A stretch of DNA of 33,785 bases from Chloroflexota bacterium (GTDB taxonomy: Bacteria > Chloroflexota > Dehalococcoidia > GIF9 > UBA5629), in contig VGOO01000005.1 in the NCBI GenBank assembly GCA_016875925.1, forward strand, positions 1 to 33,785, read 5' to 3'. The notes under the pieces are model-generated. The model was not told the origin of the DNA. It saw only the letters and a list, made by a program, of their open reading frames with translations, and made no database searches. Numbering within the stretch: the stretch's first letter is position 1; each line of letters opens with the position of its first letter. Positions 3,422 through 9,802 of the stretch are shown in pieces. Both the position numbers and the translations under genes were made by a program.

Positions 3422-4762
3422 ATGTGTGATACCCTCGTAGCTTTAGGAAATTCCACACATGACGGTTCGGTAATTTTTGGGAAGAACAGCGATAGGCCAC
3501 CAAATGAAGCGCAGGTGATTCGGCGGTTTCCTAGAACAAAACATCATAAAGGTTCCATGGTGAAATGCACCTATATCGAGATCCCACAGGCATCGGAGAC
3601 CTTTGAGGTTCTTTTGTCGTGTCCCTTTTGGATGTGGGGGGCAGAGATGGGTGTTAATGAGCATGGCGTAGCCATCGGCAATGAGGCTGTATGGTCTAAA
3701 GAAAGTTACGCAGACAGTGGGTTACTTGGCATGGACTTGCTTAGACTGGGTCTGGAACGTGGCGCTACTGCCAAAGAAGCGCTCGGAGCGATAACAGAAC
3801 TGTTAACGGAATATGGTCAGGGTGGAGATTGTTTTTTTGGCACACCTATGAAATATCACAATTCTTATATTATTGCTGACGCTAACGAGGCCTGGGTTCT
3901 GGAAACTGCTGATAAATACTGGGTGGCAGAGTATGTCAAAGATATCCGCTCAATTTCAAACGGATATACCATAGGCAAGCACTGGGATATGGCTTCACCA
4001 AATTTGGTCAATCACGCTGTGGAGAAAGGGTGGTGTCAATCCGAGCAAGACTTCGATTTTGCCCAGTGCTATGGCGATGCTGGAATGAGGGAGATCGTGC
4101 ATTGTGTTGAACGCGCTAATCGCAGCACTAGACTTATGATGGATAACCGGGGTAAGGTAACAGTGCGCAGCATGATGGATTACCTCAAGGACCATGATGG
4201 CTACAGTATGCTTGAGTGGAATCCGGACAAACAGCTAAACACCATCTGCATGCATGCAGGCCCTGAGGTTATCAGCCAATCGACAGCGAGCTACGTGGGG
4301 CACTTATCAAAAAAGTTTCTTACACACTGGTTTACTGGAGGTTCAAGCCCTTGTATTAGCGTTTACGTTCCGTTCTACGTGGGTTTTGAAATTCCCGCCT
4401 TGTTCTCTCGAGGCAAAGAGAAATTTGGAACGGCTTCGCATTGGTGGATTCATGAGAGACTGGTTCGGAGTGTGCAACAAGACTATCCATCGCGAGCCGG
4501 CTTTTTGGCAAGCGAAATTAAGAAACTGCAGTCTGATTTTCTAGCGGAAGCCGAGCAAGTAGCTAACAGAGTGGATGGCCTCTCTGCTGCGGCCAAGGCC
4601 CGATTGCTGCAGGGCTTTACCAACAGGTGCGCTAAGACTATGACCGCAAAAAACAGCGAGTGGCTGAAAGCGTTGGGAAAAACGAAGCTCGATTCGCATA
4701 CTAAGAGCAACTATCTGGATTTTTTGAACAGCATAAACAAGTCGGCGGGAATAACGTTCTGA
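3422..4762 (+). CDS. Peptidase C69 / secernin-like Ntn hydrolase
   Basis: N-terminus MCDTLVALGNSTHDGSVIFGKNSDRPPNEAQ matches the secernin/C69 pattern, with Cys2 as candidate N-terminal nucleophile. SD-like aggaga upstream. Confidence 0.85.
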   Translation: MCDTLVALGNSTHDGSVIFGKNSDRPPNEAQVIRRFPRTKHHKGSMVKCTYIEIPQASETFEVLLSCPFWMWGAEMGVNEHGVAIGNEAVWSKESYADSGLLGMDLLRLGLERGATAKEALGAITELLTEYGQGGDCFFGTPMKYHNSYIIADANEAWVLETADKYWVAEYVKDIRSISNGYTIGKHWDMASPNLVNHAVEKGWCQSEQDFDFAQCYGDAGMREIVHCVERANRSTRLMMDNRGKVTVRSMMDYLKDHDGYSMLEWNPDKQLNTICMHAGPEVISQSTASYVGHLSKKFLTHWFTGGSSPCISVYVPFYVGFEIPALFSRGKEKFGTASHWWIHERLVRSVQQDYPSRAGFLASEIKKLQSDFLAEAEQVANRVDGLSAAAKARLLQGFTNRCAKTMTAKNSEWLKALGKTKLDSHTKSNYLDFLNSINKSAGITF

Positions 4763-5932: not shown

Positions 5933-6329
5933 TCGTAATCCAAATTATTGCGCTCGGTTGCAGTCTGCCCTGCATTTTGTTATCTCTCAGTTTGCGTTCC
6001 GGCAGAAGCGACCTTCTGATTTGACACTTATTGTGTTCGGATGTAGTATTAGCACGGTGATTTTTCTCGAAGGTTTTTACTGCTGATTTCGGCAGCAGGA
6101 TTTTGAAGCTTAACTGGCGTGATACAGTCAAGAAATATACCCTGAGGCTAAGGCGATTGGGCTTGCTTTGAAGCCTATTTGTTCTTCGGCTGATGGTGCA
6201 GCGGCTGCTTCAGCATAGTAATGACCTTGTAAGCTGTAGAGCATAGTGAAGCAGGTTGGAGAGTATGCCACGCGTCCACTTGGTCTCGTAGTTTGACGTG
6301 TGTAAAACTTTAAGATAAGGAGTGCGCTA

Positions 6330-7424
6330 ATGATTTCGTTTAGTCCTACCGAAGAGCAACAGATGATTGTAAACATGGTAAGGCAGTTTGCTGAGGATGA
6401 AATGAGGAAGGTGTACCGGGAGTGCGATGAAAGCGGGGAGATACCGGACCGTATCGTCAGTACCGCGTGGAATTTAGGTCTTGTATCCACTAGTATTCCC
6501 GAAGTGTATGGGGGGGGAGGTGGTGAGCGTTCAAGCATCACAGGCTGTCTCATTGCCGAGGAACTGGCTTGGGGTGACCTATCAATTGCCATGCATGTCC
6601 TGTGTCCTGGGCTGCTGGCTCTGCCTGTTTTAGAAATGGGCACTGCCGAGCAAAAGAAAAAATATTTACCGGGCTTCTGTGGCGTCAAATATATGCCAGC
6701 TAGTGCCGCCCTCATTGAACCTCGCTTCAATTTTGATCCCTGCGCTCTCTCTGCTGCAGCAAAGCTTGATAAAGAGGGGTATGTGCTGAACGGACAGAAA
6801 TGCTATGTGCCGCTGGCAGCGGAGGCGGAAGCATTGATTGTCTATGCTAATGAGAAAGGTACCGGTCAAGCTTTTATAGTGGAAAATGGTACCCCCGGAC
6901 TGGTGGTCGGCGAGCGAGAGAAAAACATGGGAATAAAGGGCTTGGCTACGTACGAGCTTACCTTGAAGGATTGCCGAGTGCCCAGAGAAAACCGCTTAGG
7001 TGGCGCCAACGGTTGTGATTTCAGCAGGTTACTCAACTGCTCACGCGTGGCTTTGTCTGCGATGGCAACGGGGGTTGCCAGAGCTGCCTTCATGTATTCC
7101 AGGGACTATGCCAAAGAGCGCGTTGCTTTTGGTGAGCCTATTGCCGCAAGGCAAGCGATTGCATTTATGTTGGCTGAAATGGCTATTGAGATCGACTCGA
7201 CACGTCTGATGGCATGGGAGGCTGCTTGGAGGTTGGACAAGAAGGATGAAGCGACTAAAGAAGCTTCGTTGGTCAAGATGTATGCTGATGATATGGTGCT
7301 GATGGTTACTGACAGAGCTGTGCAAATACTGGGCGGGCATGGTTACATACGGGAACATCCGGTAGAGCTATGGCTTAGAAACGGGCGTGGGTTTGTCACA
7401 TTCGACGGAATGGCTATTGTATAA
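6330..7424 (+). CDS. Acyl-CoA dehydrogenase family protein, divergent subunit (short C-terminus)
   Basis: ACAD fold motifs: ERVAFGEPIAARQAIAFMLAEMAIEIDSTRLM and QILGGHGYIREHPVE. Ends FVTFDGMAIV. SD gataaggag upstream. Confidence 0.9.
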   Translation: MISFSPTEEQQMIVNMVRQFAEDEMRKVYRECDESGEIPDRIVSTAWNLGLVSTSIPEVYGGGGGERSSITGCLIAEELAWGDLSIAMHVLCPGLLALPVLEMGTAEQKKKYLPGFCGVKYMPASAALIEPRFNFDPCALSAAAKLDKEGYVLNGQKCYVPLAAEAEALIVYANEKGTGQAFIVENGTPGLVVGEREKNMGIKGLATYELTLKDCRVPRENRLGGANGCDFSRLLNCSRVALSAMATGVARAAFMYSRDYAKERVAFGEPIAARQAIAFMLAEMAIEIDSTRLMAWEAAWRLDKKDEATKEASLVKMYADDMVLMVTDRAVQILGGHGYIREHPVELWLRNGRGFVTFDGMAIV

Positions 7425-7436
7425 AAGGAGACTAAA

Positions 7437-8633
7437 ATGATCGATTTTGAACCTACACAAGAGCAGAAGGATGCTATAAAGCGAGCTCATCAAATCGCTG
7501 AGGAGATGTTCCGCCCCATAAGCCGTTACTACGATGAAAAGGAACACGAAAGCCCCAAGGAGTTGATTGATACCTTATGGTCCAGAAGGCAGGACGGAAC
7601 GCTCTTTGGGGGTCTGGATTTAACCGCTGCACTCACGGTGGAAGAAGTCTGCTGGGGAGACGCAGGTTTCTACTTGGTTGCACCTGGTCCATGCCTTGGT
7701 GGTGCTGCTGTGTTTGCCGCTGGCACCAAGGAGCAAATGGAGCGCTTTCTGAAACGTTTTAACGAAGGCGGGCCGAAATGGGGTGCCATGGCCATGACGG
7801 AGGCCGGTTGTGGCTCAGATACTTCTGCCATTTCTACCACGGCTGTTAGAGATGGTGACGAATGGGTTATTAACGGTGAAAAGATATTCGTCACCTGGGG
7901 GAAAAGAGGACTGGGGGAGTCTGATGGCTTTGTGGTGGTCTGGGCCAGCATAGACAAGTCGGCAGGGCGTGCTGGAATGAAGTCCTTTGTGGTAGAGGCG
8001 GGAACGCCTGGTGTTCGAGTGGAGAAGCTGGAGAAAAAGCTAGGAATTAAAGTCAGCGATACCGCTACTCTCGTTTTTGATAATTGTCGTGTACCATTTG
8101 ACAATATACTTGGCAGTCCAGAGGTTAAGAAGGCAGCCGAAGGGAAAGCCGCTGGCTTCAAAGGAGCCATGGCTACCTTCGATGTTACCAGGCCTATTGT
8201 AGGTGCTATGGCTTTAGGGGTTGCTCGTGCCGCTCTTGATTTTGTCAAAGATGTCCTGCGCGAAGAGGGTATAGAGATACGCTATGGCTCTCCGCGTAAG
8301 AACTTGACCACGGTTGAGAGAGACGTGATGGAGATGGAGGCCAACTATAAGGCAGCCAAAATGCTGATACTCAGGTCACTGTGGATGATGGGGCAATTGC
8401 AGCCGAATAACCTTGAGTCCTCGATGGCAAAGGCCAAAGCCGGGCTAGCTGCCACCAAAATCACGCAGAAAGCGATAGAGATTATGGGGCCACTTGGTTA
8501 CTCCAGGAAGTATCTGCTGGAAAAGTGGATGCGCGACGCCAAAATCAACGATATCTTTGAGGGCACCGGGCAGATCAATATGCTCATCGTGGCTCGGAGG
8601 ATACTTAATTACTCCAGAGATGAGCTAAAGTAG
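7437..8633 (+). CDS. Acyl-CoA dehydrogenase family protein
   Basis: AMTEAGCGSDTSAI, GEKIFVTWG, VFDNCRVPFDNILG, and C-terminal IFEGTGQINMLIVARRIL with the EG(T/S) Glu. SD aaaggag 12 bp after the previous gene. Confidence 0.93.
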   Translation: MIDFEPTQEQKDAIKRAHQIAEEMFRPISRYYDEKEHESPKELIDTLWSRRQDGTLFGGLDLTAALTVEEVCWGDAGFYLVAPGPCLGGAAVFAAGTKEQMERFLKRFNEGGPKWGAMAMTEAGCGSDTSAISTTAVRDGDEWVINGEKIFVTWGKRGLGESDGFVVVWASIDKSAGRAGMKSFVVEAGTPGVRVEKLEKKLGIKVSDTATLVFDNCRVPFDNILGSPEVKKAAEGKAAGFKGAMATFDVTRPIVGAMALGVARAALDFVKDVLREEGIEIRYGSPRKNLTTVERDVMEMEANYKAAKMLILRSLWMMGQLQPNNLESSMAKAKAGLAATKITQKAIEIMGPLGYSRKYLLEKWMRDAKINDIFEGTGQINMLIVARRILNYSRDELK

Positions 8634-8692: not shown

Positions 8693-9802
8693 CTAGATGC
8701 CAGGTGAAAATATTGACTTTAGGGCGTCTCCTAATTCTCTTAGAAGGTAGGAGAGCTCACCTACAGTGAAAGCGCAGTGGGCATATCCCCAATAGCTTTC
8801 GTTGCCGGCGCCATCGACTGCCTTTACACGCCAGTAATAAGTACCAGGCTCAATCTTTGCGGTGTAGCTGGTTTCTAGCAGCCCCGCACGCTGTGCTCCA
8901 CCACCGAACTGGTCGAAGTTGACATTTTGCGATATTTCTAGAGTATAGGTGACACCGCTAGAATCGGTGACGCTGTTCCAACCAAAGGTTACCTCTTTGG
9001 CTCCCCATAGTCCAAAGCTGTGTCCCATGGGCGCAATTGGCATTGGCTCGCGTGGTGGATGGCGGTCCTCTACTGGGACAAGAGTGTACCCTGCTTCAGA
9101 ACTGGTCTTGGTTTCCGAGCTTGGCGTAGAAGGTGTTTCTTGAGATGGTGCAGGTTTGACTGCAGGCAAGATTTGGATTGTTGCTATCCCGGACTTAGCG
9201 TATACCATCGGGATGTCTACAAAAAGTTTGTATTCGCCAGGCGGTGCAGTTGGAACTGTAAAACGTGTCTCAAAGCTTCCAGCCTCATTGGTGTTTACAC
9301 GGGTGCCAGTAGCATCGCCGGCGAGGAGGAGCGTCCCACTATCGTTCGATGGGAATCCTGTGCCATTGACGATTAGTACAGTGCCAGGCTGGGCAGATGT
9401 TGGCTGAACTTTAAGGCTGGGCTCAACGTTAAATTGAAAGTTGACAGGGTCGACGCCTGCCACTGGTGCAAACTGAACATAATGGACGCCGTACCTAGCT
9501 TCAGGGACAGCGAACGTAGCCACTACGGTATAGCCACCTTTGGGTACGTTGCCTTTTGTAAGGACAACAGTCCTGTTTTCGTCGAAAGTAACTGTGGGGC
9601 TCCAGCGGATCCTGTAGTCTCCCTCTAGCGAAAAGTTGGAACTGATAATGCTGAGAGTTACCCTTGTGCCGACTCTTCCTGAATTAGGCGTCAAACTGAC
9701 GCCGCAATCACCACCTCCTCAGCTCGCACCTTCTGCTACTGGTGGTAGGGCTACCAGACCCAGCACAAAAGCCAGGGTTAGGAGGCATATTAACTTGGGC
9801 AT
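8693..9802 (-). pseudogene. Secreted TIG/IPT plus FnIII-like beta-sandwich protein, interrupted by an in-frame TGA at 9719-9721 (nonsense mutation, sequencing error or recoding)
   Basis: The track ORF 8693..9694 starts at an internal TTG. The same frame extends upstream to an ATG at 9800-9802 encoding MPKLICLLTLAFVLGLVALPPVAEGAS-(TGA)-GGGDCGVSLTPNSGRVGTRVTL. Body has TIG-like repeats (LKVQPTSAQPGTVLIVNGTGFP) and an FnIII-like end (YYWRVKAVDGAGNESYW). Confidence 0.8.

Follow-up and report, generated by a model that had tools for sequence, protein, structure and literature searches.

The two consecutive acyl-CoA dehydrogenase genes of the window (the whole stretch of 33,785 nucleotides analysed, contig C5 of a 1.68 Mb Dehalococcoidia metagenome assembly) very probably encode one obligate heteromeric FAD-dependent acyl-CoA dehydrogenase of the FadE24-FadE23 branch, split independently of the ChsE/IpdE pairs. 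The partition of site residues between the two proteins, named A and B, their universal co-occurrence, the conserved gene order and a confident paired model together give good support to the obligate heteromer that had been put forward in a preliminary description of this DNA, and A and B are almost certainly functional only in combination.

Results and Discussion

Organization of the Gene Pair

Both open reading frames were found at positions 6330 to 8633, where tandem acyl-CoA dehydrogenases had been described, and the motifs quoted at that time for A and B were present in the sequence. Each gene starts with ATG, and the two are separated by 12 nt and lie in the same frame. According to Pfam, A and B are full three-domain acyl-CoA dehydrogenases, with an identity to each other of only about 29%. 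The closest solved structures of both are the medium-chain type enzymes 1ukw and 4p13; caffeyl-CoA reductase CarC was another close match, for A. The features of the pair are the following:

6317..6322, + strand: AAGGAG, ribosome-binding site of A (sequence)
6330..7424, + strand: subunit A (FadE24-like, non-catalytic beta type), 364 aa (Pfam PF02771/PF02770/PF00441)
6708..6740, + strand: in A, ALIEPRFNFDP where the flavin motif xMTExGxGSD is expected (alignment)
7119..7154, + strand: in A, RVAFGEPIAARQ, with the partner-side FAD (ADP) contacts R281/F284/Q292 intact (residue mapping and 134 pairs)
7323..7343, + strand: in A, QILGGHG, with the partner-side FAD contacts Q349/G353 intact (residue mapping and 134 pairs)
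7401..7421, + strand: in A, the end FDGMAIV, aligned to Y-E-G-T-S-Q-I of MCAD, terminal helix missing (alignment)
7425..7430, + strand: AAGGAG, ribosome-binding site of B, right after the TAA of A (sequence)
7437..8633, + strand: subunit B (FadE23-like, catalytic alpha type), 398 aa (Pfam, three domains)
7794..7820, + strand: in B, MTEAGCGSD, flavin/acyl-CoA motif (residue mapping)
8274..8309, + strand: in B, EIRYGSPRKNLT, degenerate RxxFG...Q region (residue mapping and 134 pairs)
8478..8501, + strand: in B, EIMGPLGY, degenerate QILGGxG region (residue mapping and 134 pairs)
8556..8576, + strand: in B, FEGTGQI with the catalytic Glu E375 (E376 equivalent), T378 and Q380 (residue mapping and 134 pairs)

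In the N-domain of B (about 7570-7635) and of its homologues a variable insertion, in many cases charged, takes the place of the IPExYGG loop, for example GSPEKKEKKEEGDQPKEKKPRETN in locus L073, with a possible effect on substrate access. The protein encoded at 8693-9694 on the minus strand, which adjoins the pair and is convergent with B, contains TIG/IPT-like and PGS-type Ig-like domains.

Partition of the Site Residues

Site residues were mapped in MCAD numbering onto the 4p13 sequence, for the window pair and then for 134 distinct pairs; the roles of the mapped positions in the flavin/FAD/acyl-CoA site are those which we take from established MCAD structures. B keeps the own-chain site residues T136, S142, T168, D253, T255, R256, E376, T378, Q380 and R388, and is devoid of the FAD residues lent by the neighbouring chain (R281, F284, Q292, Q349 and G353). 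A is the mirror image of B in the residues kept and lost, except for R256, which is mostly kept by A; it lacks T136, S142, T168, T378, Q380 and the entire terminal helix. Among the 134 distinct pairs, T136, S142 and T168 were present in all the B proteins (134/134 each) and in 2, 4 and 1 of the A proteins, respectively. Conversely, R281, F284, Q292, Q349 and G353 were found in 134, 133, 134, 133 and 134 of the A proteins, and in 3, 1, 0, 4 and 0 of the B proteins. E376/T378 were present in 130 of the 134 B proteins, the other four having gaps, and the residues were complementary in all of the close orthologue pairs (19/19).

These results confirmed the complementary motif loss previously claimed for A and B, in a stronger form than had been stated. 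The poor RxxFG-x-Q region reported for B was also borne out, and was accompanied by a second loss, QILGG to EIMGP. The absence of the tail Glu from A was sustained in part: A of the window does end in FDGMAIV, but the defect is broader, and a Glu at position 376 is still present in 52 of the 134 A proteins, so that the loss of Glu alone is no family-wide marker and the defining loss is that of the whole flavin site. MCAD (1ukw, 4p13), the top sequence and structure match, has the same fold, and all its site residues are found on A or on B; it is, however, a homotetramer in which every chain carries the two half-sites. Neither A nor B carries both half-sites in the manner of homotetrameric MCAD and SCAD, the catalytic and FAD half-sites being split across the two subunits.

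The FAD of acyl-CoA dehydrogenases sits at the dimer interface (PMC11153573). The enzyme formed by A and B would most likely be an A2B2 assembly of two heterodimers, each A-B pair having a single functional FAD site. In this site B would bind the flavin ring and acyl-CoA and bear the catalytic Glu, and the ADP end of the cofactor would be held by residues of A reaching across the dimer interface. The corresponding mirror-image pseudo-site would be dead, since the active-site half has been lost from A and the partner half from B.

The short C-terminus of A is not an artefact, since its end is shared by the orthologues. The 29 A orthologues of the family and order stop at the same residue, with the exception of L013, which runs 9 residues further, and in nearly all the homologues A ends level with MCAD residue 381, without the terminal helix; some divergent A types have an earlier end or a different, longer tail. 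A frameshift, an assembly error or a truncation as the cause was ruled out by this common end. Complementary pairs of two other deep subtypes were observed (L173-L176 and L180; L127-L130 and L183-L186). In one of them A ends in ...MRDAAAME, ahead of the Glu position, and in the other, found in Actinomycetota, A has a different tail (...SPELVGDVMVARSVF).

Co-occurrence of the Two Subunits

The genome of the window and 60 relatives were searched for A at a threshold of E<1e-89; A was found in 29 genomes, in every one of them with B directly after it. In a species-representative collection (80 loci, ranging from Dehalococcoidia to Herpetosiphon, Binatia, Deltaproteobacteria, Myxococcota, Acidobacteria and Actinomycetota), each A with enough downstream DNA had B next to it. 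Among 400 Chloroflexota genomes, 44 contained A and 51 contained B; B was adjacent in 44/44 of the former, and A or a divergent A was adjacent in 51/51 of the latter. The sole A lacking a B match in this set had its B cut by the contig end, and a divergent A was located beside B in each of the eight genomes matching B only. The order of partner-type A (FadE24) followed by catalytic-type B (FadE23) was the same in the window and in all the pairs inspected. A chance pairing of A and B was ruled out by the universal adjacency.

The preliminary description had named common occurrence of orthologues without their partner as an argument against a heteromer. Such orthologues were looked for, and the only unpaired copy was a second B in one genome (G012), which has an intact A-B pair too. 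This second B (L182, G012:C16) is preceded at 3785-3870 by just the terminal codons of a gene for A (...TTFTGMAIV followed by the stop codon), and is a partial duplication or deletion leaving an orphan catalytic subunit. An extra B beside a mere remnant of A, together with the full active-site half, Glu included, that B retains, might be taken to mean that B functions by itself as an ordinary homotetramer, with A as a relative that is inactive or has a regulatory role. This arrangement is very improbable, both for the intact pair in that same genome and for the loss of R281, F284, Q292, Q349 and G353 from B in nearly all of the 134 pairs, exactly where A is conserved; in a B-B dimer the contacts to the ADP side of FAD would be missing.

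For the A-B heteromer, a paired alignment was made from 17 natural in-frame A-stop-B read-through stretches. The AlphaFold2 model of the read-through chain of the window (767 residues) had a pLDDT of 85.4 and a pTM of 0.88, and the Foldseek top match was the medium-chain dehydrogenase 1ukw. The pTM implies a confident predicted placement of A against B; as homodimeric dehydrogenases are included in the AlphaFold2 training data and nearly any two would dock in this way, the model is consistent with a heteromer and supportive of it, and is not independent proof.

Relationship to FadE24-FadE23 and to the Steroid-Type Pairs

In the phylogenetic trees all the A proteins were monophyletic (support 99.7/100), as were all the B proteins (98.7/100), both within the MCAD-side clade. 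A and B together with a small group of complete homomers formed a clade (98.7/100) next to MCAD (96.7/93), and under LG+C20 PMSF the support for the A, B and MCAD-side clades was 99-100. The core A proteins and the e24 set formed a joint clade (99.9/100), and so did the core B proteins and the e23 set (99.9/100).

In the actinobacterial pairs L162, L166, L167 and L169, B starts with MAINLE(L/M)PRKL; A of L167 has 460 aa and starts with MTNT, and in L166 and L167 an inositol-phosphatase gene is located directly upstream of the pair. These N-termini and lengths are presumably those of mycobacterial FadE24 (A) and FadE23 (B). Taken together with the inositol-phosphatase synteny, they led us to read the actinobacterial pairs as FadE24 and FadE23, and on this basis A and B would be orthologous to mycobacterial FadE24-FadE23 (Rv3139-Rv3140). 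The order in M. tuberculosis is impC-pflA-fadE24-fadE23-fadB4 (PMC2834668). The mycobacterial and the Dehalococcoidia pairs are alike in gene order, residue partition and the joint A and B clades. They differ in the N-terminal extension of about 100 aa of the mycobacterial-type A (L167), in their neighbours, with the inositol phosphatase upstream in the former, and in the score of B against the Dehalococcoidia B profile, only about 400 bits for the four actinobacterial pairs versus about 800 for close orthologues. A-B is a real and conserved Dehalococcoidia member of the FadE24-FadE23 kind. FadE23-FadE24 has been called a complex, with Wipperman 2013 and Voskuil 2013 cited for it (PMC11980559), and the idea of a heteromer is consequently less new than the preliminary description implied.

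A similar subunit logic is found in ChsE4-ChsE5, ChsE1-ChsE2 and IpdE1-IpdE2 (alpha2beta2), in which alpha has the flavin ring, the Glu and the substrate site and beta accommodates the ADP moiety of FAD (PMC11153573, PMC8399759), the division of labour being that of B and A, respectively. Pairs of the ChsE/IpdE type do occur in the same genome. That A-B itself belongs to this family of steroid side-chain/ring dehydrogenases is nevertheless hardly conceivable. Neither 4x28 (ChsE4-ChsE5) nor 6wy8 (IpdE1-IpdE2) was among the best 60 solved-structure matches of A or B, whereas a steroid-type protein of the same genome matched ChsE/IpdE structures first. The ChsE/IpdE-type subunits, among them the chains 4x28_A and 6wy8_B as well as the tandem pairs of the same genome, formed clades separate from A and B, neither of which fell inside the ChsE/IpdE alpha and beta clades. 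In AU tests under LG+C20, with constraint trees searched under a simpler model, which gives the unconstrained tree some advantage, the grouping of A with Chs-beta (p=0.0004), that of B with Chs-alpha (p=0.002), the two ancestral-subunit groupings together (p=4e-8) and all four subunits as one clade (p=3e-5) were rejected. Under LG+I+G4 the grouping of B with Chs-alpha was borderline (p=0.059), above the 5% rejection level. Membership in ChsE/IpdE was ruled out by the solved-structure ranking and the AU tests.

The comparison with FadE26/FadE27 (ChsE4-ChsE5) made in the preliminary description holds for the mechanism of split half-sites and fails for the family, the phylogeny against the ChsE pairs, a check proposed there, having placed A and B on a distinct branch with the joint clades rejected. 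The rejection of a common origin with ChsE/IpdE indicates that the split arose at least twice. The FadE24-FadE23 branch would have arisen by the split of a medium-chain-type homomer, in an event separate from that of the steroid pairs.

Proposed Function

The neighbours of the pair in the window (glycerate kinase, C69 peptidase, M50-CBS protease, the TIG protein and thrS) gave no clue to the substrate, and in most of the close Dehalococcoidia the neighbours are likewise unrelated to beta-oxidation; the substrate was therefore deduced from distant operons. A TetR-A-B-(other)-fadB-thiolase run was found in the Chloroflexota loci L085, L098, L102 and L103, and partly in L066, L067 and L106, and A-B-thiolase in two Dehalococcoidia loci (L050 and L052). 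No etfAB was identified among the neighbour genes scanned. The location of the pair between TetR and fadB-thiolase in several lineages suggests ordinary beta-oxidation, and A-B would probably catalyse the initial step in the beta-oxidation of fatty acyl-CoA, passing the electrons to ETF.

For the mycobacterial proteins, an activity of the FadE23-FadE24 complex other than acyl-CoA dehydrogenation has been reported (PMC11980559), and a role of FadE23/24 in mycolic-acid recycling has been proposed (PMC4334782). The doubt thus cast on plain dehydrogenation, the description of related Chloroflexota as anaerobes (PMC5736913), the match of A to CarC, and acryloyl-CoA reductase AcrC as the best NCBIfam match of A and B, far below the cut-off, would all fit a complex that is dehydrogenase-like in form and acts as an enoyl-CoA reductase or in other flavin chemistry. 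Such an activity is unlikely, given the conservation of the catalytic Glu and the acyl-CoA residues of B, and the fadB and thiolase genes that adjoin the pair in several lineages.

Retaining the role as a dehydrogenase, we lean slightly towards a reading in which the split acyl-CoA dehydrogenase evolved at least twice and FadE24-FadE23 is a widespread heteromer serving the ordinary beta-oxidation of fatty acids (in Chloroflexota, Binatia, Deltaproteobacteria, Myxococcota, Acidobacteria and Actinomycetota), and no steroid specialist. The heteromeric architecture is usually tied to steroid side chains; a second, independent branch, often in fatty-acid oxidation operons, is indicated here, and an independent second origin of the split would be a modest evolutionary surprise. 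A and B are also a clean case of complementary degeneration following gene duplication, readable from the 134 pairs. The annotation of A and B as two distinct 'acyl-CoA dehydrogenases' leads to an overcount of enzymes and to mispredicted single-gene functions in many environmental genomes.

In the Binatia loci L074-L079 a glycerophosphodiester phosphodiesterase gene is consistently located directly downstream of B (for example L074, 10399-11112), a possible link to lipid turnover. In addition, several ChsE/IpdE-type tandem pairs were observed in the genome of the window (G000, contigs C14, C52, C45 and C72; L132-L134 and L136). The best matches of the alpha-like protein of C52 were Tcur3483 IpdE1 and ChsE4, and the presence of these pairs suggests a steroid-like or polycyclic acyl-CoA metabolism in this Dehalococcoidia MAG.
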